Below are positions 2,954 to 32,210 of a stretch of DNA of 64,000 nucleotides, one piece after another. Location: assembly GCA_026398135.1 (NCBI GenBank), contig JAPLTN010000108.1:1-64000 (forward strand). The letters run 5' to 3'. Each line of letters begins with the position of its first letter. The first letter of the stretch is position 1. Source of the stretch: Verrucomicrobiota bacterium (lineage in GTDB: Bacteria > Verrucomicrobiota > Verrucomicrobiia > Opitutales > Opitutaceae). Both the position numbers and the translations under genes were made by a program. Below the pieces are notes generated by a model. It worked only from the letters and a program-made list of their open reading frames with translations, was not told where the DNA came from and did not search any database.

Positions 2954-2992
2954 AAGTAATTGGTTATAATGTTTAAATAGTTTAATTTTAAG

Positions 2993-3029: not shown

Positions 3030-3047
3030 GTCTACGCTTACGTAATC

Positions 3048-3815: not shown

Positions 3816-3835
3816 CACCCCGACCCCTTTTTCAG
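3799..3835 (+). repeat. RAYT-associated REP, right direct copy
   Basis: Second direct copy of the 37-bp repeat. It contributes the stop codon of the RAYT relic. The fragment CCCCTTTTTCAGCC is partly repeated again just downstream (about 3845-3860). Confidence 0.85.
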
Positions 3836-3870
3836 CCGGCCAGTACCCCTTTTCAGCCATGTTTGATCGT

Positions 3871-14818: not shown

Positions 14819-14939
14819 CAATTCGCGATCAATTTGAGCCCATAACCGCAATTGGCCGGGGACGGCCAACGCTACACAAAACGCCAGATGTAGGGTTGGC
14901 CGTCCCCGGCCAATTCAGCTCAACTGGAAAGCGAATTAG
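14819..14939. repeat. About 120-bp palindromic element, copy A
   Basis: Inverted arms built around TTGGCCGGGGACGGCCAACG at 14853-14872, mirrored at 14894-14913. The outer flanks are also mirrored (AATTCGC...TTGAGC against GCTCAA...GCGAATT). It has the same architecture as the element at 19532-19675. No gene is inside, so it is a REP/MITE-like element. Confidence 0.8.
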
Positions 14940-15274: not shown

Positions 15275-16390
15275 TCAGCGGGACAACACCCGGGCAAATT
15301 CCGCCATTAAACCGGCGAATTTCTGCGGTTCAAAATCCGGCACCGACTGGGCCGCCGCGAACAGGTTAGCCAGCTGGGGCCCGGCGCCATTCGCCCGCGC
15401 CCGCTCCGGCCACGCCGCCAGCAGCCGGTCCAGGGCCAAGACCAGCCGCTCCGCCCGGTAAGCCTGTTCCCGCACACTCACCTCCTCCGCGGTAAACTCC
15501 GCCGCGCATCCGGCCAACGCATACAGCACGCGCTCACCGTCGGCCGTCTTCCAGCCTGCCTCCGCCGCCCGGGCCAGCCCATCCGCCTCGCCCCCCGCAA
15601 CATCGAGAGCCCCCGCACCCAGGCCGGTTGCTCCCGCCGCCCGGCGCACCAGCCACGCCAAAGCCCGCTCGCGTTCATCAACCCCCGCCAGCGTATCGCG
15701 CCCGCTGGCCCGTGCCGCCGCCGCTTCACGCCAAGCCACGGCCTGCCCGACGAACCAAGCCTTGGCTCCATCCCACCCGTGGACTTCCCGCCAGTGCCTC
15801 GGTTCCGAAGCCAGCTGACCATCCAATTCAAAAATCAGGCGGGGATGCCGCCCCTGCTCCACCAAGCGTGACTCGATAACTTGATGGCACGCCACGCACG
15901 CCTCGGCCCGCGCCAGCGGAGAACGCAGATCGCGCATTCCCGAAGCCACTTTTTCCGCATGGCTTAACTCCGGCCGGGTATGCGTGCGCAGCCATGAATC
16001 GGTGCTCTCATGGCAGCTCGCGCACCCCACCCCGTCCGCAACGAGTAAATCCCCGCCCCGCATTAACTCCGGCACCCCCGCCGCCGGCGCATGACACACC
16101 GTGCAACTCGCACTCGCCGTCACATCCGCGAGCCCCAGCACTTCGCCCATCCGCGCCGAACGAGCGCTGGCCAAAGTCGCGAAAGCCCGGGCGTGCCCAT
16201 CGCGCGATTTAAACCGCTCGCCCACCCCGCCCACCGCACCCGCCCCGCCATGGCAGCCACTGGTGCCGCAAGAGGCATTACCCAGGATTTTATTCATCAA
16301 CGCGACCTCTCCCGCCACTTCGCCCATCACTTGGGCCGGGTGCAGGAAGAAAAAACCCGTGAATAAGTTAATAAGCGATTTACGCAGCAT
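15275..16390 (-). CDS. Periplasmic four-heme cytochrome c (c554-like)
   Basis: 371 aa with an N-terminal signal peptide (SLINLFTGFFFLHPAQVMG). Heme sites: an unusual CGTSGCH (C-x4-C-H) near residue 41, then CTVCH, CASCH and CVACH. The C-x4-C-H first site followed by C-x2-C-H sites is a pattern of cytochrome c554-like proteins. Histidines in GHARAF, THTRPE and GRHPRL may serve as distal ligands. The C-terminal half is alanine-rich and helical, without heme sites. It is divergent from the reductase gene at 16483; the 92-bp gap probably holds promoters for both. Inference: a soluble electron carrier for the cluster to the right. Confidence 0.8.
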   Translation of the reverse strand: MLRKSLINLFTGFFFLHPAQVMGEVAGEVALMNKILGNASCGTSGCHGGAGAVGGVGERFKSRDGHARAFATLASARSARMGEVLGLADVTASASCTVCHAPAAGVPELMRGGDLLVADGVGCASCHESTDSWLRTHTRPELSHAEKVASGMRDLRSPLARAEACVACHQVIESRLVEQGRHPRLIFELDGQLASEPRHWREVHGWDGAKAWFVGQAVAWREAAAARASGRDTLAGVDERERALAWLVRRAAGATGLGAGALDVAGGEADGLARAAEAGWKTADGERVLYALAGCAAEFTAEEVSVREQAYRAERLVLALDRLLAAWPERARANGAGPQLANLFAAAQSVPDFEPQKFAGLMAEFARVLSR

Positions 16391-16442
16391 AGTGTTTTCT
16401 GCTTATCACTTAGTAGCTGGCCGAACAAAACACAGAGTAAAT

Positions 16443-16448
16443 TATAAT
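16443..16448 (+). promoter_or_regulatory. Candidate -10 box in the divergent gap
   Basis: A TATAAT hexamer sits 35 bases before the reductase start, in an AT-rich patch of an otherwise GC-rich region. No good -35 hexamer is placed 17 bases upstream, so this is only a suggestion. Confidence 0.25.
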
Positions 16449-16482
16449 AGTAATTTCGAGCGCTCCAACCATCGCCCCAAAG

Positions 16483-17766
16483 ATGCCAGTCCTCACCCCC
16501 ACTGACTTCACCCTGATCGTCGGCTTCGTGCTCGTTGGCGGACTTCTCGTGCAGCTCACCCTCCTGCTGGTTGACAGCCTGCGCTCCGCCGCCCACGCCC
16601 GCTCCGCCCGCGCCCGGGAACTGGAACGCCTCGAACTCGACATCCGCGCCGCCCGCCTCCGCATCCAATCCGCAGAACAGGAGCGCACCGCCTGGAGCGG
16701 CGTGCGTAAATTCACCGTCGCCAAAAAAATCCCGGAATGCGCGGACACCTACTCCTTCGAACTCACCCCGCACGACCGCCGCCCCATCCCCGGTTTCAAA
16801 CCCGGCCAATACCTCACTTTCCAGCTCACCCTGCCCGGCTTGGCCAAGCCCATCATACGCTGCTACTCACTCTCCGACTGTTCCCGCCCGAACCATTACC
16901 GCGTGACCATCAAACGCTGCCCCCCGCCGGCCGGCAGCGAGCACCCCCCCGGCAAAGGCTCGTCGTTTTTCTGCGACTCCGTTGCCCAAGGCGACATCCT
17001 CGACGTCAAAGCGCCCGCCGGCCACTTCTACCTCGATCTCGAAAAAGAGACCCCCACCGTCCTCATTTCCGGCGGAGTCGGCATAACTCCGATGATTGCC
17101 ATGGCCCACGCCTTGATCGAGGCCCGCTCCAACCGCGAGGTCTGGTTTTTCTTCGGCTCCCGCAACAGCGAGGACCACATGCTTCGGGCCGAGACCCTCG
17201 CACTCACCTCCAAATACCCCAATTTAAAGCTCCATATCTGCTACTCCCGGCCCGGGAAAAACGACCGCCTCGGACACGATTTTCAACACGAGGGCCGCGT
17301 CACCGTGGACCTGATGAAGTCCCTCCTGCCCTCGCAAAACTACCATTTCTACCTCTGCGGCCCGGGAGCGTTCATGGAGAGCATCACCGACGATCTCCGC
17401 ACCTGGGGCGTGCCCGATGCCGCCGTGCACTTCGAGGCCTTCGGACCGGCCTCAGTGAAAAAAGCCGCCAAGCCCGACATGAAAAAGTCGCTCACCTCGG
17501 CGCCCTTCACCGCGAAGGTGATCACGTTCGCCAAGTCCGGGCTCTCCACCGAATGGAGCCCCGAGCACGCCACTCTGCTCGACGCCGCCGACGCCTGTGG
17601 CGTGCGCATCGAAGCCGGCTGTCGTGCCGGCAACTGCGGCGCGTGTCTCGTGGCCATCAAGTCCGGCGAAGTCGAATACCTCAACGAACACGGCGCCGAC
17701 GCCGAGCCCGGCAGCTGCCTGGCCTGCATCTGCAAACCCAAGGGCGCGCTCACCCTCGACGCGTAA
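16483..17766 (+). CDS. Membrane-anchored FAD/NAD(P) oxidoreductase with [2Fe-2S] domain
   Basis: 427 aa. Residues 9-32 form one membrane helix, followed by a charged coiled helix (30-70). The FAD domain carries RCYSLSD. The NAD(P) domain carries LISGGVGITPMIAM and FYLCGPGAFMESI. The C-terminal plant-type ferredoxin has CRAGNCGACLV plus a later cysteine (C-x4-C-x2-C ... C in GSCLACICKPKG). This domain order is that of NqrF-, phenol hydroxylase reductase- or Hcr-like enzymes. It transfers electrons between NAD(P)H, FAD and [2Fe-2S] on the cytoplasmic face. It is first in a rightward run that continues with a four-cluster ferredoxin fusion and a cytochrome b. The physiological direction (reductase or NAD+ reduction) cannot be read from sequence. 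Confidence 0.85.
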   Translation: MPVLTPTDFTLIVGFVLVGGLLVQLTLLLVDSLRSAAHARSARARELERLELDIRAARLRIQSAEQERTAWSGVRKFTVAKKIPECADTYSFELTPHDRRPIPGFKPGQYLTFQLTLPGLAKPIIRCYSLSDCSRPNHYRVTIKRCPPPAGSEHPPGKGSSFFCDSVAQGDILDVKAPAGHFYLDLEKETPTVLISGGVGITPMIAMAHALIEARSNREVWFFFGSRNSEDHMLRAETLALTSKYPNLKLHICYSRPGKNDRLGHDFQHEGRVTVDLMKSLLPSQNYHFYLCGPGAFMESITDDLRTWGVPDAAVHFEAFGPASVKKAAKPDMKKSLTSAPFTAKVITFAKSGLSTEWSPEHATLLDAADACGVRIEAGCRAGNCGACLVAIKSGEVEYLNEHGADAEPGSCLACICKPKGALTLDA

Positions 17767-17814
17767 GAGAAAAGCAACCCGCCTCCGCACTTCCGCCTCC
17801 GCTCGCTTTCAACC

Positions 17815-19527
17815 ATGTCGATTCCCGCCCCCAGCCTGGAACGCCCACGCCGCTGGGATGCCCCCTTCAATCCCGATTTCCCCGCCGCGGAAATTGAGCG
17901 CCTGCTCACCCTCTCGCCCTTCCGCGAGATGAACCTGGCGAGCTTCCCCCGCTCCGCCCCCCTGGCGGATATCCTGCGCAACGACACCACCCTCCGCACT
18001 TACAAGGCCGGCGAGCTCATCGTACGCGAACGCGACTACGGCACCTCCGCCTTTCTCATTCTCTCGGGCCGGGCCCGTGTCGTGCTCGCGCCCGACCTTC
18101 CCCCGGCCGCCGTCGGCCGGAACGAACGCACCCGCCCGGGGCTCCTGCGATCTCTCGCCCAGCTCTGGACGAACTCGCGCGAGGACGAGGCCGCGCGCCG
18201 GCGCCAAAGCCGCAAACTGCAAAACCATTCCGTCTTCCTCCAGGACATCCCCCGCGTGCTCGACGAGTATAAAACCGCCGCCATGCAAGCCGGCGATTTC
18301 TTCGGCGAGATCGCCGCCCTCTCGCGCATGCCGCGCACCGCCAGTATTTTTGCCGAAGTGGACGAAACCCAGCTGCTCGAGATCCGCTGGCAGGGCCTGC
18401 GCGACTTGCTCAAATACGATCCCGCGCTGCGCAACCACGTGGACAAGATCTACCGCCAGCGCGCCCTCGCCACCTACCTGGAAGAGACTCCCTTCCTTCG
18501 TCACCTCAGCCCCGAGGCCCGCGCCGCCGTCGAAGCCGCCACCCAATTCGAAACCTACGGCGAATACGACTGGTCCGGCGAATACAAGAAACTCGTCCAG
18601 GCCGGCTCCGCTGCCGTGGCTAAGGAACCCCTCATCGCATCGGAAGGGGATTACCCGAACGGCATTATCATGATTCGCTCCGGTTTCGCCCGGCTCACCC
18701 AGCGCCATGGAGCCGGCCACCGCACCCTCAACTACCTCGGCGCCGGCTCCGTTTACGGCCTGGCCGAAATCGCCCACAACTACTCCCACCCCGACGACAC
18801 CGTTTCCCTGCAACACAGCCTGCGCGTCATCGGCCACACCCATATCCTTACCATCCCGGCGGCCATCATCGCACAATACGTCCTGCCCTCGATGCCCGCC
18901 GACGCACGGCCCGCACCCATCGCGCAAAACACCTCCGACGCCCGCCCCGCCGCCGCTAAAAAAGCCCGGGACCGCAGTGCCAGCCCCGCGGTTGACTCCG
19001 CCATGATGGAGTTCCTCACCCAGAACCGTCTCTTCAACGGCACCAAGTCCATGGTCATCGACCTGGATCGCTGCACCCGTTGCGACGACTGCGTCCGGGC
19101 CTGCGCCGCCACCCACGACAACAACCCGCGCTTCCTCCGCCACGGCCCCATCCATGATTCCCTCATGGTCGCCCAGGCCTGCATGCACTGCACCGACCCC
19201 ATCTGCATGATCGGCTGCCCCACCGGAGCCATCCACCGCGATAGCTTCGGCGGGGAAGTGGTGATCAATGCCGATACCTGCATCGGCTGCACCGTCTGCG
19301 CGAATAACTGCCCCTACGGCTCCATTCGCATGGTTGAAGTACGCGACGAAACCGGCCGCGCCCTGCTCGCCCAAGACGCCAAACCCATCCTCAAAGCCAC
19401 CAAATGCGACCTCTGCCTCGACCAGCTCGGCGGTCCCGCCTGCGTGCGCGCATGCCCCCACGACGCCCTCGATCGCATCAACCTGAACTCCCTCGATCCG
19501 CTCACTAAATGGCTTACCCGCCTCTAA
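17815..19527 (+). CDS. Two cyclic-nucleotide-type domains fused to a four-[4Fe-4S] ferredoxin
   Basis: 570 aa, soluble, no signal peptide. The N-terminal half has two cNMP-binding-fold domains: domain one with GDFFGEIAALSRMPRTAS, which matches the phosphate-binding cassette F-G-E-[IL]-A-L..R-T-A; and a second, weaker one around EPLIASEGDYPNGIIMIRSG. After a proline/alanine linker (about residues 365-395), a DmsB/NrfC-type domain carries sixteen cysteines in four motifs: CTRCDDCVRAC, CMHCTDPICMIGC, CIGCTVCANNC and CDLCLDQLGGPACVRAC. Known: such ferredoxins wire flavin or molybdenum enzymes to membrane partners. Inference: an electron relay between the flavoprotein at 16483 and the cytochrome b at 19735, possibly gated by a nucleotide. 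The in-between gap of 48 bases supports cotranscription. Confidence 0.85.
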   Translation: MSIPAPSLERPRRWDAPFNPDFPAAEIERLLTLSPFREMNLASFPRSAPLADILRNDTTLRTYKAGELIVRERDYGTSAFLILSGRARVVLAPDLPPAAVGRNERTRPGLLRSLAQLWTNSREDEAARRRQSRKLQNHSVFLQDIPRVLDEYKTAAMQAGDFFGEIAALSRMPRTASIFAEVDETQLLEIRWQGLRDLLKYDPALRNHVDKIYRQRALATYLEETPFLRHLSPEARAAVEAATQFETYGEYDWSGEYKKLVQAGSAAVAKEPLIASEGDYPNGIIMIRSGFARLTQRHGAGHRTLNYLGAGSVYGLAEIAHNYSHPDDTVSLQHSLRVIGHTHILTIPAAIIAQYVLPSMPADARPAPIAQNTSDARPAAAKKARDRSASPAVDSAMMEFLTQNRLFNGTKSMVIDLDRCTRCDDCVRACAATHDNNPRFLRHGPIHDSLMVAQACMHCTDPICMIGCPTGAIHRDSFGGEVVINADTCIGCTVCANNCPYGSIRMVEVRDETGRALLAQDAKPILKATKCDLCLDQLGGPACVRACPHDALDRINLNSLDPLTKWLTRL

Positions 19528-19531
19528 TTCC

Positions 19532-19675
19532 CATTCGCGGTCAAGATGAGCGGAAAGTCGGCGTTGGCCGGGAACGGCCAACGCTGCACAAATCCCCAGA
19601 TGTCAGTAAGCTATGTATTATATGTAGGGTTGGCCGTCCCCGGCCAATTCAGCTCAACTTGAACGCGCACTAGAA
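19532..19675. repeat. About 120-bp palindromic element, copy B
   Basis: Same architecture as 14819-14939: arms at 19562-19585 and 19628-19649 (GGCCGGGAACGGCC against GGCCGTCCCCGGCC), with outer flanks CATTCGCGGTCAAGATGAGC and CAGCTCAACTTGAACGCG. It falls between two genes of the electron-transfer run. Confidence 0.8.
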
Positions 19676-19734
19676 TAAGCCGCCACCCGACTTCTCCGCC
19701 CGCTCACCCGCTTGGTTTTTCCCGCCCTTTATAA

Positions 19735-20562
19735 ATGCTACGCCCGCTCCAGCTTCGCCGCGCCGCCCTCTCCTTTCTGACTCTGGCTGCGTCCGTCCTT
19801 CTCGCACTCTATTACCCGCAACTGGAGGCCCGGTTGCCTCACTTGGTCTATCTCTCCGGCTGGCTGTTGCTCGGCCTCTGCCTGTTCCTGACCGCCTACA
19901 ACGCGCGTAAAAAGCTCCCCATGTTACCGCTCGGCGGCTCGCGTCTCTGGCTGCAACTTCACGCCTACGCCGGTCTCTTCACCGGAGTTATCTTTGTTTT
20001 CCACCTGCGCTTCGCCCTGCCCAAGGGAATGTTCAATCTCACCCTCGCCGCTCTCTTTGCCGCCGTTACCGTGAGTGGTATTCTGGGTTGGTGGCTCTCT
20101 CGCATCATCCCTCGCCGCCTTGCCACCGCCGGCGGTGAAGTGCCCTACGAACGCATACCCATTATTCGACGCGATCTGCGACTACGCGCCGAAAAGATCG
20201 CGTTAACCACCATTCCCGAGGCCAAAGCCTCCACTCTGGCCGAATTCTACGCCCGCGATCTCGCCCCTGCTTTCAGCGCCAACCCTCGCTTCTTTATCCA
20301 CCTGCTCGGCTCCCGCCGTCCACTCAACGATCTGCTCGCCCATTTGGATGAGGCTGGACGTTATCTAAGTCCCCAGGAGCAGACCCGGGCCGCAGACTTG
20401 GCTGAGTTGGTGCGTGCCCGTCACCACCTCGATTTTCACTACGCCAACCAGCTCCTGCTCAAAGCCTGGCTCTTTGTCCATATCCCCCTCACCTACGGCC
20501 TGCTGCTTTTCGCCGCTGTCCATATCGTAGTCGTTTACGCATTTAGCGGAGGAGCCCAATGA
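19735..20562 (+). CDS. Diheme cytochrome b-like membrane protein
   Basis: 275 aa with about five membrane helices (about residues 10-28, 35-58, 73-97, 102-124 and 240-270). Two helices carry paired histidines one helix-length apart: H-x13-H in LHAYAGLFTGVIFVFH and H-x13-H in VHIPLTYGLLLFAAVH. Each could bind two b hemes on opposite membrane sides, as in NarI, b561 or ferric-reductase-like subunits. A soluble loop of about 110 residues with several Arg and Glu separates helices four and five. Its stop overlaps the start of the decaheme gene (ATGA), so the two are likely made together. Likely role: passing electrons across the inner membrane between the cytoplasmic ferredoxin and the periplasmic hemes. 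Confidence 0.75.
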   Translation: MLRPLQLRRAALSFLTLAASVLLALYYPQLEARLPHLVYLSGWLLLGLCLFLTAYNARKKLPMLPLGGSRLWLQLHAYAGLFTGVIFVFHLRFALPKGMFNLTLAALFAAVTVSGILGWWLSRIIPRRLATAGGEVPYERIPIIRRDLRLRAEKIALTTIPEAKASTLAEFYARDLAPAFSANPRFFIHLLGSRRPLNDLLAHLDEAGRYLSPQEQTRAADLAELVRARHHLDFHYANQLLLKAWLFVHIPLTYGLLLFAAVHIVVVYAFSGGAQ

Positions 20563-22286
20563 GCACGGAAGGCCGCCAACCTGCCCCCGATTTCGATGAT
20601 CGCCACTACGAGCGACCGCAAAAAAACTGGATCTGCGGCCACGCCGCCGAGGGCTGTCCCTGCAAACTCGGGCCCGGCCCCGGCGGCACCTGTCGCGCCG
20701 GTCCGGAATGCACCCCGCAACTCGTCATCAATCCCGGCGAAACCAAAGGACTGTGGAAATGCACCCGCCCGGCCGACCAGGGCGGGTCCTGTCCCCTGGG
20801 TCCCAATGTCGATGGCACGTGCTGCCGCAACACGCCGTCTTGCCAGCCCGTCCGCAGCTTGCGCGCTCGTCGCGGCCTGCTCGTTCGCGCCACGCTGATT
20901 GCGTGCACCGGAGTTCTCCTCCTCGCCCTCGCCACCCCGCGGCGGGCCGGTATCCTTAGCCCCGGTCCGCTCACCCCGGTCCACACCGGCGCGCATTTCG
21001 CCAGCTCGCACGGGCACGCTGAGGTCAAGGATCCCGCCGGTTGCGCGGAATGCCACCCCGCCGCCCACTCCGGGCCGGAATCCTGGGTCGGTCTCGCACT
21101 CACCACCGCCAACCGCTCGGGACCACTCGCCCCCGCCCGTTTGCTCGGCCCAGCCCGGCGGGATTTCACCGCCATGGACACGGCCTGCCAGTCCTGCCAC
21201 CAACCCCACTCTTTCCATCAAGCGAGCGTTGCTCAGGCCGCCTCCTGCTCCGTCTGCCATCTCGAACACCAGGGCCGCGACCACAATCTGCTCAACGTAA
21301 ACCCGGCCCACTGCACCACCTGCCATGGCGACGCCGCCCAGATGCAGGCGTCCGCCACCCTCGCCGAAAAACTCCCCGCCGCCCTCTTCGCCAAAATCCT
21401 TCCCAAGGGCCAGTCGGCCTTCCCCGTCGCCCGCCCCGCCGGCGGGCTTACTTCGCGCATTTCCTCCTTCGCCGGCGACCACCCCGAGTTCCGCCTCCAC
21501 CAAGCGGGCACGGGCGACCGCAACCCGCTCGCCTTTAACCACGCCCTCCACCTCAAGGGCCAGGCGATCCCGCTCCTGAATAACGCCCCCCTCGACTGCC
21601 AGTCCTGCCACGTTCCCGACGCTTCCGGCGTGCGCATGCAACCGGTCACGTACGCCCAAAACTGCCAGTCTTGCCACGCGCTGCAAATCGACCCGGCCAC
21701 CCCGTCGCTTACCCTGCCCCACGGCAGCGCCGAGACCGCCCGGGCGGTTCTCCGCAGCCTGCCCGTTGCCTATACCGACGACGCCGTGCGCCGCCTCCAG
21801 CTCTCCGGCTCAGCCTTGCGCACCCACGTGGCGGAGAAACTCGCCGCCTTCCAAAAGCTGAATCCCTCCGGCGAGGCCCTGGAACGTAGGGTTTTCTTCG
21901 GCCTTCCCTCCGCCCCCGTCGGTCGCGATTCCTGCAACCTTTGCCACACGGTGGAATCCTCCGCTTCGGGGGGGGCCCCGCGCATCGCACCGGTCACTGT
22001 GCCTGACATCTGGCTGCCCCGCGCCCGATTCGACCACGCCAAACACACCCAAACCAGCTGCTACGCCTGCCACGCCTCCGCCACCACCAGCACCCTCACT
22101 TCCGATGTGCTCATGCCGACCAAAGCCAACTGCGCCAGTTGCCACGGCCCGGCCGGCGGAGTGACCGATTCCTGCACCGCCTGCCACGGTTTTCATAATC
22201 CCCCTCCACCCGCCAGCCCCCCTCTGCGCGCCTATTTCGATTCCAAATTACCGACGCGTCCGGCGTCACTGGCCGCCCAGCCATGA
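20559..22286 (+). CDS. Inner-membrane-anchored decaheme cytochrome c with duplicated Cys-rich head
   Basis: 575 aa. The cytoplasmic head (residues 25-95) has two related Cys-rich units: WICGHAAEGCPCKLGPG then GGTCRAGPEC, and WKCTRPADQGGSCPLGP then GTCCRNTPSC. A membrane helix follows (about 107-127). The periplasmic part contains ten CxxCH sites: CAECH, CQSCH, CSVCH, CTTCH, CQSCH, CQSCH, CNLCH, CYACH, CASCH and CTACH. It resembles NrfB/MtrA-like or c3-like decaheme carriers but is tied to the inner membrane. The head could bind a metal or cluster and take electrons from the ferredoxin fusion. It overlaps both neighbours by 4 bases (cytochrome b before, barrel after), which argues for one functional complex. 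Confidence 0.9.
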   Translation: MSTEGRQPAPDFDDRHYERPQKNWICGHAAEGCPCKLGPGPGGTCRAGPECTPQLVINPGETKGLWKCTRPADQGGSCPLGPNVDGTCCRNTPSCQPVRSLRARRGLLVRATLIACTGVLLLALATPRRAGILSPGPLTPVHTGAHFASSHGHAEVKDPAGCAECHPAAHSGPESWVGLALTTANRSGPLAPARLLGPARRDFTAMDTACQSCHQPHSFHQASVAQAASCSVCHLEHQGRDHNLLNVNPAHCTTCHGDAAQMQASATLAEKLPAALFAKILPKGQSAFPVARPAGGLTSRISSFAGDHPEFRLHQAGTGDRNPLAFNHALHLKGQAIPLLNNAPLDCQSCHVPDASGVRMQPVTYAQNCQSCHALQIDPATPSLTLPHGSAETARAVLRSLPVAYTDDAVRRLQLSGSALRTHVAEKLAAFQKLNPSGEALERRVFFGLPSAPVGRDSCNLCHTVESSASGGAPRIAPVTVPDIWLPRARFDHAKHTQTSCYACHASATTSTLTSDVLMPTKANCASCHGPAGGVTDSCTACHGFHNPPPPASPPLRAYFDSKLPTRPASLAAQP

Positions 22287-24532
22287 AGAAGCCAACCTTC
22301 TTAGCCTCAGTCGTTTTTACTTCGGCGGTCGCAATCGCGTGGGCCAATCCCGTAACGCCTGCCCGAGAAGACCCGCTCCCCGACGACCTTCGCGCCCATC
22401 AACGTCTCGACCCCGAGCCGCCCCCCTCCGCGCCCGCCAACACCCCGGCCGATCCCGGTCGTCCCCTTCCGCCACTCCCGGCACCCGCCTCTGCCGGAAA
22501 AATTCAGGTAAACACCCTCACCACCCCCTCGCCCGCCCCCGGTTTCAACCCCGACCCCGGTTCCCCCGAACCCGCCCCGTCCGCGAGCTCTCCCTACTTT
22601 TCCAACGACCCGCAATACCCCGTTCCCAATCCCGCATCGAGCCCTGCCCCCGACTACCCCGCCACCACGACCAGCCCCCGCCCCACCACCCTGCCCGACA
22701 CCCGCACCTCGGATCCCGCCGAGATGATCCGCCGCACTTCAGAAATCACCGGCGCCCCCGCCCTCCCTCGTTCCGGCGTGCGCGCCACCGACTACATCCC
22801 GCCCGACCATGGCCATGGTTGGAAAGCGCCGGGCACGTACCCGCTGGCCGAGCAGGGTCGGGGCTACCCCTCCAATTCCGAACCCGCACCCGACCGCTGG
22901 AAAGACGTCGGGTTTACCCCTTGGCGGCGCTACACCTCGGGCGACCTCAACGAACAACCCTTCGCCCACCCCGACACCGAGGTCTGGCACTGGTATCGCC
23001 AAAGCCTGCTCAAGGGCGATGCCCCCATCCACGGCCAGGACTGGTTCCTCGCCCTCACCGCATCCTCCGAGAGCCTCTACGAAAACCGCGATCTTCCCAC
23101 GCCCTCCGGAGTCAGCGCCGCCAGCCCCGGCCAATTCGATTTCTTCGGCGATTACCGCTCCACCGTCTTGGTGCAAAACATCGCCCTCGATGTGCTGCTC
23201 TTTCAGGGCGAAACGGTTTTTACCCCGCCCCGCCAAGTCGTTAAACTCCGCTTCGTCGGCAACTACAACCTGGTCGAGTTCTCCGCCCCGGGCATCATCA
23301 ACCCCAACCCCGGCAATCCCGGCGGTGGCAACAACTCCCCGCTCCGCCGTGAAGACACCGACTTCGCCCTCCAGGAGGCCTTCTACGAATACCACCTCGC
23401 CGACCTTTCCCCGACCTACGATTTCGTCTCCCTTAAAGTCGGCATCCAACCCTTCAACAGCGATTTCCGGGGCTTCATTTTTAACGACACCCAGCTCGGA
23501 CTCCGCCTCCTCGGCAATCAGGACAACAACCGCCTGCAATACAATGTAGCCTTCTTCGACCTGCGCGAGAAGGACACCAACTCCGAACTCAACACCCTCG
23601 ACTCCCGCCAGCAATACGTCGCGGTCGCCAACCTCTACCGGCAGGATTTTTTCACCAAGGGCTACACCGCCCAGCTCTCGCTCCACGCCAACTTCGACCA
23701 GGGCGGAGGCGAATACTACGACACCAACGGCGGCATCGTGCGCCCCGCCCCCCTCGGCACCATCGCCCCGCACGATGTCTCCGTCGGCTACCTCGGCTGG
23801 GCCGGCGACGGCCACCTCGGCCGCATCAACCTCAACCACGCGCTCTACTACGCGTTCGGACGCGATGAACTCAACGGTCTGGCCGGCCGCGCGAACGAAA
23901 TCTCCGCCGCCCTCGCCGCCCTCGAAGTCAGCTACGATCGCGACTGGATCCGTTACAAAGCCTCCGCCCTCTACGCCACCGGCGATTCCGACCCGACCGA
24001 CGGCCGCGCCACCGGCTTCGACTCCATCGTGGACAACACCAACTTCACCGGCGGCCCCTTCAGCTACTACGTCCGACAGGGCTTCAATCTCGGCGGCACC
24101 GCCGTCGCCGCCAAACAACGCTTCTCCGTCCTGCCCAATCTCCGCACCAGCAAAACCCAGGGCCAGGCCAATTTCGTCAACCCGGGCGTCGTCCTCCTCG
24201 GCCTCGGCACCGATATCGAGGTCACCCCGAAAGTACGCGCCTTCGTAAACGCCAACCACATCAGCCTGGCCCGGACCGAAGCGATCCAGACCGCCCTTTT
24301 AACCAACCAGGTACATTCCGACTTCGGCTTGGACTTCTCCCTCGGCCTCCAATGGCGCCCCCTGCTCACCGATAACATCATCCTCTCCGCCGGCTACGCC
24401 CTCTTCCTGCCCGGCCGTGGCTTCGACGACATCTATCGCAACACCTCCCCCGGTCTGCCCGGGCTTTCGCGTTCCACCGCACCCGACGACCAGCTACACA
24501 GCGCGGTCCTTTCCCTGAACTTCACCTACTGA
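22283..24532 (+). CDS. Outer-membrane beta-barrel protein of the cytochrome cluster
   Basis: 749 aa with signal peptide (TFLASVVFTSAVAIAWA). Residues 22-190 are a low-complexity proline/serine region, probably periplasmic. From about residue 230 on, alternating amphipathic strands (TVLVQNIALDVLLFQ, VKLRFVGNYNLVEFS, and so on) continue to the C-terminal strand AVLSLNFTY. That strand ends in an aromatic residue, as outer-membrane barrels do. Placed between two decaheme cytochromes and coupled by ATGA to the first, it is the natural candidate for the pore that lets hemes cross the outer membrane. That is inference; no close match to MtrB or OmbB is visible by eye, and a general porin is the alternative. 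Confidence 0.75.
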   Translation: MKKPTFLASVVFTSAVAIAWANPVTPAREDPLPDDLRAHQRLDPEPPPSAPANTPADPGRPLPPLPAPASAGKIQVNTLTTPSPAPGFNPDPGSPEPAPSASSPYFSNDPQYPVPNPASSPAPDYPATTTSPRPTTLPDTRTSDPAEMIRRTSEITGAPALPRSGVRATDYIPPDHGHGWKAPGTYPLAEQGRGYPSNSEPAPDRWKDVGFTPWRRYTSGDLNEQPFAHPDTEVWHWYRQSLLKGDAPIHGQDWFLALTASSESLYENRDLPTPSGVSAASPGQFDFFGDYRSTVLVQNIALDVLLFQGETVFTPPRQVVKLRFVGNYNLVEFSAPGIINPNPGNPGGGNNSPLRREDTDFALQEAFYEYHLADLSPTYDFVSLKVGIQPFNSDFRGFIFNDTQLGLRLLGNQDNNRLQYNVAFFDLREKDTNSELNTLDSRQQYVAVANLYRQDFFTKGYTAQLSLHANFDQGGGEYYDTNGGIVRPAPLGTIAPHDVSVGYLGWAGDGHLGRINLNHALYYAFGRDELNGLAGRANEISAALAALEVSYDRDWIRYKASALYATGDSDPTDGRATGFDSIVDNTNFTGGPFSYYVRQGFNLGGTAVAAKQRFSVLPNLRTSKTQGQANFVNPGVVLLGLGTDIEVTPKVRAFVNANHISLARTEAIQTALLTNQVHSDFGLDFSLGLQWRPLLTDNIILSAGYALFLPGRGFDDIYRNTSPGLPGLSRSTAPDDQLHSAVLSLNFTY

Positions 24533-24586
24533 TTTCCGGCTGCTTACCTGCCGTCCTCTTTCCAACCGCAGTCTGCCCTCACTCCC

Positions 24587-27500
24587 GTGCTCCGTTTCAA
24601 AAACACGCTCCGCCGCCTTGCCCTGCCACTGGCTGCCCTCTGGTCCCTGACCGTCTTCAGTCTCCTCCTTTTCGCCGACCCCACCGCCCCGACCGGCGGC
24701 ATCTCCCCGACGACTTCCGCCGCCGCCCCGTCGATCACCGGCCCCGCCACGTCCGTCTCCGCCACCCGCCCGCTCCCCGCCCCGGCCAACCTGCCCGCCC
24801 CCAGCCTCGTTGACCAGTCGCACGCCGCCGCCCGGCGCAAATCCGCCGGCTGCATCGAGTGCCACACCGGCATCGAGGACATGCACCAATCCACCCACGT
24901 TGTCCTCGGTTGCACCGATTGCCACGGCGGCGACCCCACCCCCGGGCTGACCATGCGCAAGGCCCACGTCGCCCCCCGCCACCCCGAACTTTGGCCCAGC
25001 TCCGCCAACCCCGCCGACTCCTCCGTCCTGCTCAACCACGAGTCCCCCGGGTTCATCCAGTTTATCAACCCCGGCGATCTCCGCGTCGCCGACCGGGCCT
25101 GCGGCTCCTGCCACGCCGAGATCAATGCCCACGTCGGCCACAGCATCATGCGCCACGGCGCCATGCTCTGGGGCGCCGCGCTCTACAACAACGGCGCCAC
25201 TCCGCAAAAAAATCCGCGCTACGGCCAGGCCTACGGTGCCGACGGCGTGCCCCTCCGGCTTGTCTCCCCCATCCCCGTCACCCCGGAAATGACCCGTCTC
25301 CAGGGCATCCTCGAATTCATCGAACCGCTCCCGCGCTTCGCCCTTGGCCAGCCTTCGAACATTCTGCGCATCTTCGAACGCGGCGGGGAAAAACAAACCG
25401 AGCTCGGCAACCCCAACGCCTTCGAGCCCCCCGGCCGCCCCGCCCGCCGCCTCTCCGAACGCGGCCTCGGCACGCTCAACCGCATCGACCCCGTTTACCT
25501 CAACCTCCAGAAAACCCGCCTGCACGATCCCATGCTCGATTTCATGGGCAGCAACGATCACCCCGGCGACTACCGCTCCTCCGGCTGCACCGCCTGCCAC
25601 GTCCCCTACGCCAACGACCGCTCCCCCACCAACTCCGGCCCCTGGGCCAAATACGGCCACCAGGGGCTCTCCTTCTCCGCCGATCCCATGATCTCCAAAA
25701 AGGAGAAGGGCCACCCCATCAAACACCAGTTCACCCGCAGCATCCCCAGCTCCCAATGCATGAACTGCCACATGCACCAGGGTAATCTCTTCGTGAATCC
25801 GTTCCTTGGTTACACCTGGTGGGATCAGGAATCCGACGGTGCCTTCATGTATCCGAAGGAACAAAAGGACCCCGCCGCCGCCGAGGAGCGCGCCTCCCTC
25901 CAGCGCAATCCCGAGGCCGCCGCCGCCCGCGGTCTCTGGTCCGACCCCGCCTTCCTCGAACGCGTCGCCGAACTGAATCCCAAGCTCAAAGAAACCCAGT
26001 TCGCCGACTACCACGGTCACGGCTGGGTCTTCCGCGCCGTCTTCAAAAAAGACAAGGAGGGCAGACTCCTCACCCTCGACGACCAGGTCATCCCCTCCTC
26101 CGATTCCGAAAAATTCAAAAAAGCCGTCCACCTCAAGGACGTCCACCTCGCCCGCGGCATGCAGTGCGTGGACTGCCACTTTACCACCGATGTCCACGGC
26201 AACGGCCTGCTCTACGCCGAGCCCCGCGCCGTGACCGCCATCGAGTGCATCGATTGCCACGGCACCATCGACCGCCGCCCCACCTTGCTCACCAGCGGCG
26301 CCGGCGGCCGGGTCGAAAACGGTCAGGTGCTCCCCAACAACCTCGCCAACGGCTCCACCCCCTTCGGCCCGCGCTTCCGCTGGGAAGGCAAACGCCTCCT
26401 CCAGCAATCCATGATGGACAAGGACTTGGTCTGGGAAGTCCCCCAAACCCTCGACGTCATCGATCCCGCCAGCCCCCGCTACAACCCCAAGGCCGCCCAC
26501 GCCAAAACCCTCCGCCGCGACGGCACCACCTGGGGTTCCCTGCCTGTAGGGCGTTCGCTTGCGAATGCCTCCGACTCCCCCTCCGCCGCCCTCGAAACCG
26601 GCTCCCCCCGCGATGCCTCCGGCGCGCTCAAAATCCTCTCTCCCGCCGCCCCCCTCAACTCTGCCACTCCGCCCGCCGACGCCGCCCACGCCTCCCTCGC
26701 CCACTCCGACGCCAACATCAGCTGCCAGGTCTGCCACACCAGCTGGGCCACCAGCTGCTTCGGCTGCCACCTCCCGCTCAAAGCCAACCAAAAGGTTCCC
26801 GGCAATAAATTCGAGGGTACCACCACCCGCTTCTACACCAGCTACAATCCCCAGGTCGTGCGCGACGATGTCTTCATGCTCGGCCGCGATGCCACCTACA
26901 AAAACAACCGCCTCGCCGTCATCCGCAGCTCCAGCGCCATCATCGTCGGCTCCCAAAACGCCAACCGCGAAGCTGTTTACTCCCAGCAACAAACCATCTC
27001 CTCCGAGGGCTTCAGCGGCCAGGCCTTCAACCCCCACTTCGCCCACACCACTTCCTCCGTCGGTACCACCAAGGGTTGCACCGATTGCCACCTCTCCGCC
27101 CAAAACGACAACCACGCCTGGATGACCCAGCTCCTCGGCTTCGGCACCGGCACGGTCAACTTCTTCGGTCGCTACGCCTACGTCGCCAACGGCGACCACG
27201 GCCTCGATGCCGTGGTCTGGACCGAAAACGAAGAACCCCAGGCCGCCCTGGGCAGCCACCTTCAACGCCTCGCCTACCCTCGCAACTACGCCGAACACCT
27301 CGCCCGGGATTCCCGCCTCACCGAGGCCCACCACCACCACGGCGCTGGCCAGGTCCTCGACGTCCTGCAACGCGGCGAATACCTCTACGCCGCCTGCGGC
27401 GAGGCCGGCTTCGTCGTCTTCGACATCGCCAACATCGACAACAAGGCCTTCTCCGAGCGCATCGTCACCGCCCCCGTATCTCCCCTCGGCCAGCGCCTCT

Positions 27501-28606
27501 ACGTCCCCACCAAATACGCTACCAGCGTGGTCTCCCCGTCCACCCTGGGCCTGGATCCGCTGCGCACCCGCCTCCCGGAAAACGAAGAGCAAGCCATCGG
27601 CTTAAACTACGGCTTCATCTACATCACCGACCGCGAAGAAGGCCTCGTTGCCGTGCTCGCCGCCACCCTGCTCGACGGCAATCCCGCCAACAACTATTTC
27701 GACGAGAAAAAAGACGTCGTCCGCTTCAACCCCGGCGGCCTGCTCACCGGAGCCACCCACGCCTACATGGCCGGCACCCGCCTCTACCTTACCTGCGCCG
27801 CCGGCCTGGCCGTGGTGGACGTCACCGACCCCTTCCACCCCAAACTACTCGCCGCGCCCACCCCCGGCCTCCTCCGCGCCCCCCGCAAGCTCGCCGTCCA
27901 ATTCCAGCACGCCTTCGTCACCGACGCCGATGGCGTTAAAGTCTTCGACCTCGCCAAGCCCGACCAGCCCAAGCTCATCGCCAGCCTCCCGCTCGCCCAC
28001 GCCGGGGGCCTCTACGCCGCCCGCACCTACCTCTACGTTGCCGACGGCCCCAACGGTCTCGCCATCATCGACATTAAAAACCCCGCCCAGCCCCGGCTCC
28101 ACTCCCGCTTCACCGCCGACGGACAGCTAAACGACACCCGCGCCATCCAGATCGGAGCCGTCAACGCCTCCATGTTCGGCCTCGTCGCCGACGGCAAAAA
28201 CGGCCTGCGCGTCGTCCAGCTCATCAGCCCCGAAAACCAGCCCGACTACCAGGGCTTCTCCCCCGAACCCAAGCCCAAGCTCATCGCCACCTACCCCACC
28301 TCCGGCCCCGCCCTCGCCATCAGCCGAGGCCTCGACCGCGACCGCGTGGTTGACGAAACCGGTGGCCAGACCGTGGTCTTCGGCCGCCGCGGCAGCCGTC
28401 CCTTACACGAGCCGGAATGGTTAAAATTCCTCCAACACAGCGACGGCACGCCCTACCGGGTAGAGGACGTAAAAACCCGGCCCGACGGCGTCCTCCGCAC
28501 CACCTCGGGCCAAGTGCTCACCCCCGCCGCCTACGTGAGCCCCGAACCCCTGGAAACCGTCACCCCAACCCCGCGCGCCCGTCTCGAACGCCGCCCCGCC
28601 CGTTAG
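24587..28606 (+). CDS. Exported decaheme cytochrome c with LVIVD-type beta-propeller
   Basis: 1339 aa, GTG start at 24587, signal peptide (LALPLAALWSLTVFSLLLFA). Ten CxxCH sites: CIECH, CTDCH, CGSCH, CTACH, CMNCH, CVDCH, CIDCH, CQVCH, CFGCH and CTDCH, all in residues 80-830. The C-terminal about 450 residues form repeated blades such as GEYLYAACGEAGFVVFDIAN, LYLTCAAGLAVVDVTDP, AFVTDADGVKVFDLAKP and LYVADGPNGLAIIDIKNP, the LVIVD-repeat pattern. It follows the barrel gene by 54 bases. Inference: the terminal, outer-face electron donor or acceptor with a propeller for binding or interaction. A GTAGGG hairpin is inserted in frame at 26546-26569 in a low-complexity linker. A fully periplasmic location cannot be excluded. 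Confidence 0.88.
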   Translation: MLRFKNTLRRLALPLAALWSLTVFSLLLFADPTAPTGGISPTTSAAAPSITGPATSVSATRPLPAPANLPAPSLVDQSHAAARRKSAGCIECHTGIEDMHQSTHVVLGCTDCHGGDPTPGLTMRKAHVAPRHPELWPSSANPADSSVLLNHESPGFIQFINPGDLRVADRACGSCHAEINAHVGHSIMRHGAMLWGAALYNNGATPQKNPRYGQAYGADGVPLRLVSPIPVTPEMTRLQGILEFIEPLPRFALGQPSNILRIFERGGEKQTELGNPNAFEPPGRPARRLSERGLGTLNRIDPVYLNLQKTRLHDPMLDFMGSNDHPGDYRSSGCTACHVPYANDRSPTNSGPWAKYGHQGLSFSADPMISKKEKGHPIKHQFTRSIPSSQCMNCHMHQGNLFVNPFLGYTWWDQESDGAFMYPKEQKDPAAAEERASLQRNPEAAAARGLWSDPAFLERVAELNPKLKETQFADYHGHGWVFRAVFKKDKEGRLLTLDDQVIPSSDSEKFKKAVHLKDVHLARGMQCVDCHFTTDVHGNGLLYAEPRAVTAIECIDCHGTIDRRPTLLTSGAGGRVENGQVLPNNLANGSTPFGPRFRWEGKRLLQQSMMDKDLVWEVPQTLDVIDPASPRYNPKAAHAKTLRRDGTTWGSLPVGRSLANASDSPSAALETGSPRDASGALKILSPAAPLNSATPPADAAHASLAHSDANISCQVCHTSWATSCFGCHLPLKANQKVPGNKFEGTTTRFYTSYNPQVVRDDVFMLGRDATYKNNRLAVIRSSSAIIVGSQNANREAVYSQQQTISSEGFSGQAFNPHFAHTTSSVGTTKGCTDCHLSAQNDNHAWMTQLLGFGTGTVNFFGRYAYVANGDHGLDAVVWTENEEPQAALGSHLQRLAYPRNYAEHLARDSRLTEAHHHHGAGQVLDVLQRGEYLYAACGEAGFVVFDIANIDNKAFSERIVTAPVSPLGQRLYVPTKYATSVVSPSTLGLDPLRTRLPENEEQAIGLNYGFIYITDREEGLVAVLAATLLDGNPANNYFDEKKDVVRFNPGGLLTGATHAYMAGTRLYLTCAAGLAVVDVTDPFHPKLLAAPTPGLLRAPRKLAVQFQHAFVTDADGVKVFDLAKPDQPKLIASLPLAHAGGLYAARTYLYVADGPNGLAIIDIKNPAQPRLHSRFTADGQLNDTRAIQIGAVNASMFGLVADGKNGLRVVQLISPENQPDYQGFSPEPKPKLIATYPTSGPALAISRGLDRDRVVDETGGQTVVFGRRGSRPLHEPEWLKFLQHSDGTPYRVEDVKTRPDGVLRTTSGQVLTPAAYVSPEPLETVTPTPRARLERRPAR
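26546..26569. repeat. GTAGGG hairpin inserted in frame in the decaheme gene
   Basis: GTAGG followed by a 9-bp stem (GGCGTTCGC / GCGAATGCC, one G-T pair) and a TT loop. The same design occurs at 62032-62055. It encodes PVGRSLANAS in a poorly ordered linker between heme sites 7 and 8. Confidence 0.7.
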
Positions 28607-29200
28607 TTCCACTTTGTTAAACCCCGAGGTGAAGTTCCCGCTCATGTGCGCTTTACCTTTTTTTGGCCGGGGACGACCAACACTGCAAAAGAACCAGGTC
28701 ATTTTGCTGGCAGGAATGTGTGGCGTTGGCCGTCCCCGGCCAATTTCAGAGGGCTTTTGGCTCACTTTCACAAACTAGAGTGAGAACCGCATAAATGCGG
28801 GACTCCAACAATGCGTGGCTTGGCGTTGGAGTTCCGGTTTTAGCCGGGGCTTGCAGGCCGGGTAGCTCTTACATCTCGCTGCGCTGGCCGGTATACGACG
28901 CCGCTTTGCACGGCGCACCTCGGTGCGTCTTCGCTTATACGCTTTATCGATCAAACCGGGTCTTTAACGCAAAGGGACAGAGTGGCATATAAAGCATTAT
29001 TCCAAAATTAGTTATCCCATGCTCCGCGCCTTGGCTTCTACCCTTGGGTGCCGCGGGCAAGGAACGAAAGGCGGAGGTCCGCCAGATTACGTCGGATCGC
29101 GACGATCACAGTCGGTATTCAGGTTAATCGTGGAATCCGGGTTGAAACCCCTCTCCCGGGCCCGTTTCGTGCTCCCAACCACGCGCCCTCCATACACGTA
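28607..29200. other. Intergenic region with palindromic elements, no gene seen
   Basis: Contains the third GGCCGGGGACG palindrome (28663-28684 against 28723-28745), without the outer flanks of copies A and B. It also holds hairpins at 28801-28835 (GACTCCAAC against GTTGGAGTTCC) and around 28914-28927 (GCACCTCGGTGC). Short open frames here look like repeat-derived shadows. The AT-rich patch near 28988-29015 may hold the liv promoter, but no clear boxes were found. Confidence 0.6.
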
Positions 29201-30343
29201 ATGAACGCTCTCATCCGCCTCATCCTCGCCTCCTCCGTCCTCGGTCTCTTCTCCGCCTGCAACCGCCAGGAATCCCCCGCCGCCGGCACCATTAAAATCG
29301 GCAACTACGGCGCCATCACCGGCAAAGACGGCACCTTCGGCGACTCCTCCACCAAGGCCACCCGCCTCGCCTTCGAGGAAATCAACGCCGCCGGCGGTAT
29401 CCTCGGCAAACAGATCGAGCTCGTGGTCGAGGACACCCAGTCCAAGCCCGGCGAAGCCTCCACCGTGGTCAAAAAACTCATCACTCGCGATAACGTCGTC
29501 GCCCTCATCGGCGAGATGACCTCCAGCCGCTCCCTCGAAGGCGCGGGCGTCGCCCAGGCCTTCAAGATCCCCATGATCAGCCCCTCCGGCACCAACCCCG
29601 CCGTCACCGCCACCGGCGACCAGATCTTCCGCGCCTGCTTCATCGACCCCTTCCAGGGCGCAGTTCTTGCCACCTTCGCCCGCGACCAGCTCAAGGCCCA
29701 CCGCGCCGCCATCCTCACCTCCATCTCCTCCGCCTACAGCACCGGCCTGGCCGACGTCTTCCGCGTCCAATTCCCCAAGGCCGGCGGCACCATCGTCTCC
29801 GACCAGAAATTCGCCGAGGGCGACAAGGATTTTAAGGCCCAGCTCACCGCCATCAAGGCCGCCAACCCCGACGTCATCTTCCTCCCCTGCTACTACACCG
29901 AGGCCGCCCTCGTCGCCAAACAAGCCCGCGAACTCGGCATCACCGCTCCCCTCATCGGCGGCGACGGCTGGGAAGCCCCCGAACTCGTCCAGATCGGCGG
30001 CGCCGCCATCGACGGCTGCTACTACTCCGCCCACTACTCCGCCGAATCCCCCGACCCCAAGGTCCAGGCCTTCGTCAAAAAATACCAGGCCCGCTTCGGC
30101 GGCCGCACCCCCGACGGCATGGCCGCCCTCGGCTACGACGCCGCCAACATGCTCGCCGACGCCATCCGCCGCGCCGGCTCCGCCGAACCCGCCAAAATCC
30201 GCGACGCCCTCGCCGCCACCAAGGGCTTTGAGGGCGTGACCGGCCGCATCGACATGGATGCCGACCGCAACGCCAGCAAACCCGCCGCCATCCTCACCAT
30301 CAAGGGCGGCAAATTCACCTACGTCCAAAACGTCTCGCCCTAA
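29201..30343 (+). CDS. livK: Branched-chain amino acid-type ABC substrate-binding lipoprotein
   Basis: 380 aa from ATG 29201, chosen because it puts a lipoprotein signal at the N-terminus (LILASSVLGLFSAC, lipobox LFSAC). An in-frame longer version would add a non-signal leader. Typical Leu/Ile/Val-binding periplasmic protein features: IKIGNYGAITGKDGTFGDSS, AFEEINAAGGILGKQIELV, IGEMTSSRSLEGAGVAQ, MISPSGTNPAVT. It heads livKHMG. The true ligand may be another amide or amino acid; sequence alone does not say. Upstream lies only a repeat-filled gap. Confidence 0.88.
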   Translation: MNALIRLILASSVLGLFSACNRQESPAAGTIKIGNYGAITGKDGTFGDSSTKATRLAFEEINAAGGILGKQIELVVEDTQSKPGEASTVVKKLITRDNVVALIGEMTSSRSLEGAGVAQAFKIPMISPSGTNPAVTATGDQIFRACFIDPFQGAVLATFARDQLKAHRAAILTSISSAYSTGLADVFRVQFPKAGGTIVSDQKFAEGDKDFKAQLTAIKAANPDVIFLPCYYTEAALVAKQARELGITAPLIGGDGWEAPELVQIGGAAIDGCYYSAHYSAESPDPKVQAFVKKYQARFGGRTPDGMAALGYDAANMLADAIRRAGSAEPAKIRDALAATKGFEGVTGRIDMDADRNASKPAAILTIKGGKFTYVQNVSP

Positions 30344-30369
30344 GTCAGAAACTCCCGCCCCTCCGCACC

Positions 30370-31260
30370 GTGAGCGAGTTTCTCCAGCAGCTGATCAACG
30401 CCCTCTCCCTCGGCGCGATCTACGCCCTGCTCGCCCTCGGTTACACCATGGTTTACGGGGTGCTGCGCTTCATTAACTTCGCCCACGCCGACGTCTTCAT
30501 GGTCGGCGCCTTCACCGGCTCCTACGTCGCCAAACACGTGCCCTCCGGCACCCTCCTCGGCGGCCTCGCAGTGCTCTTCGCCGCCATGGCCGTCTGCGCT
30601 GTGCTTGGCGTGCTCATCGAGCGCCTCGCCTACCGCCCCCTGCGCCGCGCCCCCGTGCTCAACGTCCTCATCACCGCCATCGGCGTGTCCCTGCTCCTCG
30701 AATACGGCGTGCAGCTCACCGCCGGGGCCAACCCGCGCAGCTTCCCCGCCGTCTTCCCCGTCACCCGGTTCCAGCTCGGCCCGCTCACCGTCTCCAGCAA
30801 CCAGCTCGTGGTCATCGCCGTCGCCCTTGCCCTGGTCGGCGGTCTGCAATGGATCATCTACCGCACCCGCCTCGGCGCGGCCATGCGCGCCGTCTCCCTC
30901 AACCCCCGCGCCGCCCAGCTCGTCGGCATCAACCTCAACACCGTCATCGCCTTCACCTTCGCCCTCGGCTCCGCCCTGGCCGGCGCGGGCGGCGTGCTCT
31001 ACGCGCTCAACTACCCGTCCATCGACCCTTTCATGGGCGTCATGCCCGGCCTCAAGGCCTTCGTCGCCGCCATCCTCGGCGGCATCGGCAGCCTGCCCGG
31101 CGCGGCCCTCGGCGCGCTCATCCTCGGCACCGCCGAGACCTTCGTCGGCGGCAGCGCCTACTCCACCTACAAGGACGCCATCGCCTTCGGCCTGCTCATC
31201 GTGATCATGCTCTTCCGCCCCGCCGGCCTGCTCGGACGCTTCACCGTCGAAAAAGTCTGA
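30370..31260 (+). CDS. livH: Branched-chain amino acid ABC permease LivH
   Basis: 296 aa, GTG start at 30370. Polytopic membrane protein with LINALSLGAIYALLALGYTM and the conserved GLKAFVAAILGGIGSLPGAA loop near residues 225-245, which contacts the ATPases. It lies 26 bases after livK and 11 before livM, in one operon. Confidence 0.9.
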   Translation: MSEFLQQLINALSLGAIYALLALGYTMVYGVLRFINFAHADVFMVGAFTGSYVAKHVPSGTLLGGLAVLFAAMAVCAVLGVLIERLAYRPLRRAPVLNVLITAIGVSLLLEYGVQLTAGANPRSFPAVFPVTRFQLGPLTVSSNQLVVIAVALALVGGLQWIIYRTRLGAAMRAVSLNPRAAQLVGINLNTVIAFTFALGSALAGAGGVLYALNYPSIDPFMGVMPGLKAFVAAILGGIGSLPGAALGALILGTAETFVGGSAYSTYKDAIAFGLLIVIMLFRPAGLLGRFTVEKV

Positions 31261-31271
31261 TCCGCCCCGCC

Positions 31272-32210
31272 ATGCCCCGCCAGCACGCCGCCCTCCTCGC
31301 CACCATCCTCGTCGCCATGGCCGTCGCCCTTTTCGGCGGCGCGCTCAACGCCTACTACCTCGACGTCGCCATGAACGTCGGCGTGGCCGTCATCCTCGTC
31401 GTTTCGCTCAACCTCGTAAACGGCCACACCGGCCAGTTCTCCCTCGGCCACGCCGGTTTCATGGCCGTCGGCGCCTACCTCTCCTCCGCCTGCACCCTGC
31501 GCTTCGCCCCCGCCCTCGCCACCACCGCCCACCCCGCCCTCGCCCAGCACACCCTGTTCTTTTTCGCCCTGCTGGTCGGCGGCCTCACCGCCGCCCTCGC
31601 CGGCTTCCTCATCGGCCTGCCTTCCCTCCGCCTTAAAGGCGACTACCTCGCCCTCATCACCCTCGGCTTCGGCGAGATCATCCGCGTCGTATTCCAAAAT
31701 ACCCCGGCCCTCGGCGGAGCCATCGGCCTCAACGGCATGCCGCCCCTCACCACCGTCGCCTGGACCTACGGCACCGTCGCCGTGACCGTTTTCACCATCA
31801 CCTGCCTGGTCAATTCGACCTACGGACGCGGCTTTCTCGCCGTGCGCGACAACGAGATCGCCGCCTCCTCCATCGGCCTCGACCCCACCCGCTACAAGGT
31901 CGTCGCCTTCACCCTCGCCGCCTTTTTCGCCGGCCTCGCCGGGGGCCTCTTCGCCCACCTCAAACTCGCCATCGACCCGCGCGGCTTCGACTTTTTCCGC
32001 TCCTTCGAGCTCGTCGCCATGGTCCTGCTCGGCGGCATGGGCAACACCCTCGGCGTCATCCTTGCCGCCGTCCTGCTCACCCTCCTGCCCGAGTTCCTCC
32101 GCCCCGTGGCCGAGTATCGCATGATCCTCTACGCCGTCCTGCTCATCGGCCTCATGCTCCTCCGCCCCCAGGGCCTGCTCAACTTCCGCCTCGGCCGCGC
32201 CCGCCTCTGA
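31272..32210 (+). CDS. livM: Branched-chain amino acid ABC permease LivM
   Basis: 312 aa from ATG 31272, the first in-frame start after livH; a longer open frame exists but overlaps livH deeply. Hallmarks: NLVNGHTGQFSLGHAGFMAV, LRLKGDYLALITLGFGEIIR and the EAA-like ELVAMVLLGGMGNTLG. Its stop overlaps the livG start by one base (TGATG). Confidence 0.9.
   Translation: MPRQHAALLATILVAMAVALFGGALNAYYLDVAMNVGVAVILVVSLNLVNGHTGQFSLGHAGFMAVGAYLSSACTLRFAPALATTAHPALAQHTLFFFALLVGGLTAALAGFLIGLPSLRLKGDYLALITLGFGEIIRVVFQNTPALGGAIGLNGMPPLTTVAWTYGTVAVTVFTITCLVNSTYGRGFLAVRDNEIAASSIGLDPTRYKVVAFTLAAFFAGLAGGLFAHLKLAIDPRGFDFFRSFELVAMVLLGGMGNTLGVILAAVLLTLLPEFLRPVAEYRMILYAVLLIGLMLLRPQGLLNFRLGRARL

Follow-up and report, generated by a model that had tools for sequence, protein, structure and literature searches.

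The window, by which we mean the whole stretch of 64,000 nucleotides that was analysed, contains a cluster of seven genes (A to G) whose products could form an NAD(P)H-driven line for exporting electrons across the cell envelope, a reading to which we give about even chances. Its inner-membrane portion, which would take electrons from NAD(P)H as far as periplasmic haems, is likely when taken alone. Stated in full, our proposal is more tentative: a quinone-independent machine, gated by cyclic nucleotides, that would take electrons from NAD(P)H out to the cell surface, would be built on a bridging protein (E, with a cytoplasmic Fe-S domain and a periplasmic ten-haem wire) and would use one of two outer-membrane modules depending on the lineage. 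What is uncertain in the export line is its extracellular end, where a haem wire through the predicted 18-strand barrel F would be conjectural.

The seven genes and their products

An earlier note on this DNA had described seven genes forming an electron route through the envelope, and domain matches and motifs confirmed their positions and products (Table 1). The ATGA overlaps that it had placed between the genes for cytochrome b, decaheme protein and barrel proved real. It had not mentioned the Cys-rich N-terminus of E, the variable first haem motif of A or the 207-bp gap that separates C from D in the window. The genome (3.39 Mb; contig C42) belongs to a genus that includes Verrucomicrobia bacterium IMCC26134 (L053/G010), and it also encodes ResB, a protein of haem attachment. 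The domains, the haem and cysteine motifs, the topology of E, the gene order and the co-occurrence of the genes, as given here and below, were read from the sequences.

Table 1. Features of the window
Feature	Position	Strand	Description
A	15275-16390	minus, divergent	c554-like tetraheme cytochrome; PF13435 (E 2e-8) and haem motifs
B	16483-17766	plus	NAD(P)H-flavin-[2Fe-2S] reductase, membrane-anchored; PF00970/PF00175/PF00111
C	17815-19527	plus	two cNMP-binding domains fused to a four-[4Fe-4S] ferredoxin; PF00027 (E 2e-21), Fer4 families
D	19735-20562	plus	five-helix cytochrome b; four invariant His, 120-residue cytoplasmic loop (predicted)
E	20559-22286	plus	Cys-rich domain, single TM (107-125), periplasmic decaheme
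E, N-terminal domain (residues 1-105)	20559-20873	plus	8 invariant non-heme Cys
F	22283-24532	plus	predicted outer-membrane barrel, ~18 strands (residues 255-747); no CxxCH, no Pfam family
G	24587-28606	plus	exported decaheme, 10 CxxCH, C-terminal LVIVD beta-propeller (repeats E 5e-17), no lipobox
D/E overlap	20559-20562	plus	ATGA start-stop
E/F overlap	22283-22286	plus	ATGA start-stop
Repeat, left of A	14852-14913		palindromic, intergenic; core GTTGGCCGTCCCCGGCCAA
Repeat, between C and D	19563-19647		same core
Repeat, right of G	28725-28743		same core
Downstream genes	29048-32210		periplasmic binding protein and two permeases
Low G+C	1-4000		G+C 0.46-0.53, ~0.65 around
Low G+C	34001-36000		G+C 0.46-0.53, ~0.65 around

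By motif count, A has four haem sites (three CxxCH and one CX4CH), and it is likely to be a periplasmic shuttle. In B, an N-terminal helix (TM 12-30) is followed by FAD_binding_6, NAD_binding_1 and plant-type Fer2 domains (best E 2e-21), with the catalytic part predicted on the cytoplasmic side. The 16 cysteines of C (residues 420-547) make up four 4Fe-4S sets that are conserved in the alignment. Its two cNMP domains are CRP-like; the first matched PF00027 above the cut-off and retains an intact, conserved phosphate-binding cassette (FGEIAALSR.PRT); the second is degenerate.

D fell into no Pfam family and showed only a weak similarity to DUF4405 and cytochrome b561. Four histidines (H76, H90, H249 and H263) were invariant among 13 homologues; their placement on two helices would allow a haem near each face of the membrane. 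D would thus bind two b haems, for which the four histidines suffice. Its loop of 120 residues, cytoplasmic by prediction, carries an invariant ERIP motif. Searching PDB sequences with D and F as queries returned nothing useful.

In E, all ten CxxCH motifs were invariant among 18 homologues from three phyla, as were eight non-heme cysteines that precede the TM helix (C26, 35, 45, 51, 68, 78, 88 and 95). Since c-type haems become bound on the outer side of the inner membrane, the Cys domain must be cytoplasmic. It matched no Pfam family even at E 10, and may be an Fe-S domain; eight cysteines would suit two [4Fe-4S] clusters. Its sequence makes E a bridge that crosses the membrane once, from the cytoplasmic Cys domain through one helix to ten haems outside, in agreement with the earlier claim that the decaheme protein is membrane-anchored. 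The structure model of E was of low confidence (pLDDT 56, pTM 0.33), including the haem region, and a fold search with it gave no match.

The gap between C and D carries one of three sites of a palindromic repeat. This repeat is REP- or MITE-like, occurs as paired copies left of A and between C and D, and brackets the cluster. Downstream of G lies a set of genes that resembles a branched-chain amino acid ABC transporter, and the two stretches of low G+C are possibly foreign or non-coding.

Conservation of the core and of the outer modules

The earlier note had proposed looking for the same seven-gene order in other genomes. This order, with A divergent, recurs within the genus (G009, G010 and G001) and in other genera of the Opitutaceae (G055, G040 and G045); partial copies, with their ends cut off, were found in G006, G004, G011 and G041. 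As the order is kept at protein identities of 45-83%, the cluster is not a product of chance.

A search with E yielded 39 loci, mostly from Verrucomicrobiota but also from Alphaproteobacteria, Nitrospirales and Pseudomonadales, in which A, B, C, D and E were mostly clustered together. In most loci that extended far enough, A adjoined the core, and the ten haem motifs of E and the four of A were present throughout the compared loci. Judged by these sequences, A to E are a conserved inner-membrane core, present in at least three phyla. It is sparse: D was matched in 16 of the 388 genomes of the phylum, three of them weakly. In one locus (L025), B and C, C and D, and D and E overlap or abut, and C, D and E lie close together in other loci, which places B and C in one operon with D and E. 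The genes are one conserved unit, and the flavin/Fe-S module, which the earlier note had described as an addition to the conduit idea, accompanies the decaheme protein even where the outer genes differ.

Several of these loci had features of their own. A CHASE2 adenylate/guanylate cyclase is encoded near an alphaproteobacterial core cluster (L055:17656-20115) whose C has cNMP domains, and a C protein from Nitrospirales (L062:1522-4098) has extra FHA domains ahead of its cNMP and ferredoxin parts. Opitutia-type clusters also occur in lake MAGs that bear the title Akkermansia muciniphila, and in one labelled Proteobacteria (L030, L031, L047, L052, L056; L046, L048); these titles look wrong.

F was present in 12 of 95 relatives, and G, in full or clearly matching form, in the same 12. 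Eleven of these genomes have D (the twelfth is a fragmented assembly), as do three of the 83 others (Fisher P 5e-11, kinship not corrected for). At loci without F and G, two other genes often adjoin the core, one for a pentaheme protein (roughly 570-760 residues) and the other for a barrel-like protein (about 450-500 residues); this arrangement was seen in L055, L057, L058, L061, L063, L064, L066, L105 and L108. According to sequence, then, the core joins one of two outer modules, each consisting of an exported multiheme protein and a barrel, and its pairing elsewhere with another such set suggests an outward task. Loci L046 and L052 have F and G on the opposite strand, and the outer module can therefore move separately. 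In a tree of C, the F+G rows formed one clade (100/100) apart from the rows of the other type, long branches limiting the deeper order. Homology of F with the ~450-residue barrel of the other type was considered because of a similar-looking motif, but found no support in hhalign (probability below 1%). F had no match in IMG/VR.

A structure prediction of the barrel together with each decaheme protein had been proposed as a check on the conduit, to be refuted by an ordinary solute porin with no room or interface for haems. The AlphaFold2 model of F alone went part of the way towards such a porin. It comprised about 18 strands, with pLDDT 70-85 in most of them, after a proline-rich, unstructured N-terminus of 250 residues; overall it was modest (mean pLDDT 53, pTM 0.48). 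Its closest folds (Foldseek, VIA-align) were AlgE (Z 17.6, 349 residues, rmsd 10.6) and then OprD-like porins, and MtrB (6r2q_B) came far down, at rank 48 in the Foldseek list. An MtrB-like sheath is therefore not favoured, and a narrow wire or a contact at the surface would be compatible with the predicted fold. In G, no conserved cysteine of a lipobox was found at the end of the signal-like helix in nine homologues. The window's genome also encodes, at another place, a second LVIVD-like propeller protein (G000:C27:863-1600), of which only the propeller part matched the G profile.

A proposed model of electron export and its alternatives

We infer the order of the carriers, their gating by cNMP, the outward direction, a surface location of G and a physiological role as follows. 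B would oxidise NAD(P)H in the cytoplasm and pass the electrons through FAD to its [2Fe-2S] cluster, and the four [4Fe-4S] clusters of C would take them up, the cNMP domain of C gating or docking the electron step. From C they would go to D, whose two b haems would lie one near either face of the membrane, to the Cys domain on the cytoplasmic side of E, or to both. The ten periplasmic haems of E, with A as a shuttle, would then deliver them to the outer module (F and G), and from there to an acceptor at or beyond the outer membrane, such as humics, Fe(III) or another oxidant. The likely role would be to dispose of surplus NADH in a lake bacterium that degrades sugars and is partly anaerobic. 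Control is probably exerted by cyclic nucleotides; class III cyclases were found in all nine genomes tested, which makes a cyclic nucleotide for C plausible, though such cyclases are common.

The main alternative, which we regard as rather unlikely, is that the core (A to E) feeds a periplasmic reductase of a small soluble oxidant, this being G or the pentaheme protein of the other type, with F as an ordinary substrate channel. The predicted resemblance of F to the 18-strand AlgE and OprD, a fold of solute and polymer channels that is narrower than MtrB, would suit this reading, as would the missing lipobox of G. G and the pentaheme protein also match ExtM and ExtKL of a selenite/tellurite operon weakly and far below the cut-offs, and the first haem region of G weakly matches an eight-heme nitrite reductase. 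Yet no haem site of G could be identified as catalytic, the linkage of F to G in the same 12 genomes is unusually strict for a general channel, and the occurrence of an exported multiheme protein next to either of two different barrels is easier to reconcile with a dedicated partner.

We also considered the possibility that D draws on the quinone pool like CbcL or ImcH, with B and C as a separate or regulatory branch. The conduits known so far take in electrons at the inner membrane through quinol oxidases (PMC6295460), and the weak resemblance of D to cytochrome b561 and DUF4405 is in line with this. However, B, C, D and E remain linked across several phyla and overlap or abut in L025, while the cytoplasmic Cys domain of E and the large cytoplasmic loop of D suggest a cytoplasmic donor, and we hold a quinol-linked conduit to be improbable. 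A flow in the opposite sense, in which Fe(II) or another external donor would reduce NAD(P)+, is less probable still. Electron flow through porin-cytochrome systems such as PioAB and MtoAB is believed to be inward (PMC6344600), but the reduction of NAD(P)+ by donors at the level of Fe(II) is uphill, the cluster showed no energy-coupled subunit, and the freshwater Verrucomicrobia of a 2017 lake study were characterised as (poly)saccharide degraders (PMC5615132). The direction, which the earlier note had called unknown, is less open than that: NAD(P)H oxidation runs downhill in the outward sense, and no component that could drive the reverse was seen in the cluster.

Comparison with known systems

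A search of 5.4 million open-access papers found none with this combination of parts, nor a description of the inner-membrane part, and the novelty is therefore provisional. The idea of an undescribed conduit type holds in so far as the cluster matched no named conduit family and differs from the known verrucomicrobial one; a haem conduit through the barrel is conjectural. Known Gram-negative routes of extracellular electron transfer mostly start from quinol. If our reading is correct, a module shared across phyla would lead NAD(P)H electrons directly to periplasmic, possibly surface, cytochromes under a built-in cyclic-nucleotide sensor, as another way to dump reducing power, and more lake bacteria would be worth testing for the reduction of humics or iron. 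The N-terminal domain of E offers a compact, testable part.

IMCC26134 and a relative with a single contig of 5,957,605 bp, which we take to be O. terrae, encode a hexaheme membrane cytochrome, a protein with 7 CxxCH and one CX4CH, and a barrel of 706-763 residues. This barrel was found in 27 of the 95 relatives and was absent from the window's genome; BLASTP and profile comparison revealed no kinship between it (L143) and F, and the E and F profiles had no match in the O. terrae-like genome. He et al. (2017) described, for Verrucomicrobia, porin-cytochrome clusters whose periplasmic cytochrome has eight haems, named Opitutus terrae and IMCC26134, and stated that homologues of Geobacter OmbB-OmaB-OmcB were absent from their verrucomicrobial MAGs (PMC5615132). 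By haem number, barrel and hosts, the hexaheme/octaheme/barrel cluster fits that description, and the identity of the present cluster with theirs was rejected. Given this separate octaheme cluster, its unrelated barrel and its absence here, we conclude that the present cluster is a second system. The two are alike in phylum, partly in organism (IMCC26134) and in combining a periplasmic multiheme with a barrel and sometimes an exported multiheme; E has ten CxxCH motifs in place of the eight haems reported there, and F is unrelated to the other barrel.

Hmc, Tmc, DsrMKJOP and Rnf with MmcA likewise link cytoplasmic Fe-S carriers through the inner membrane to periplasmic multihemes, to our knowledge with no outer-membrane partner. 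D matched none of the Pfam families of their membrane subunits, and the similarity of C to their Fe-S subunits was only the general one of a four-cluster ferredoxin. In NADPH oxidase and ferric reductase, an FAD-NAD(P)H domain feeds two b haems stacked across the membrane; here, this arrangement would be split over two unrelated proteins, with Fe-S clusters and c haems added, and Ferric_reduct (PF01794) was detected in only one of 13 D proteins, at E 0.02. The match of G to ExtM, of a Geobacter selenite/tellurite operon, was partial (E 5e-18, short stretches; 64.8 bits against NF040943, threshold 800), and that of the pentaheme protein to ExtKL was partial and short, far below the curated cut-off.

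The closest design is that of MtrCAB, PioAB and MtoAB, which likewise combine a decaheme, a barrel and an exported decaheme, and the last part of E matched chain A of the Mtr complex (6r2q_A; E 4e-8 over 62 positions). Yet E is not of the soluble MtrA/DmsE type, with a cleaved signal peptide, as it has a cytoplasmic N-terminal domain and one TM helix (25 bits against TIGR03508, cut-off 192). F has about 18 predicted strands against the 26 of MtrB, in a model of modest confidence (pTM 0.48), and G, unlike the surface decaheme lipoprotein of MtrCAB, has a propeller and no lipobox. Finally, the electrons here apparently come from NAD(P)H instead of quinol.
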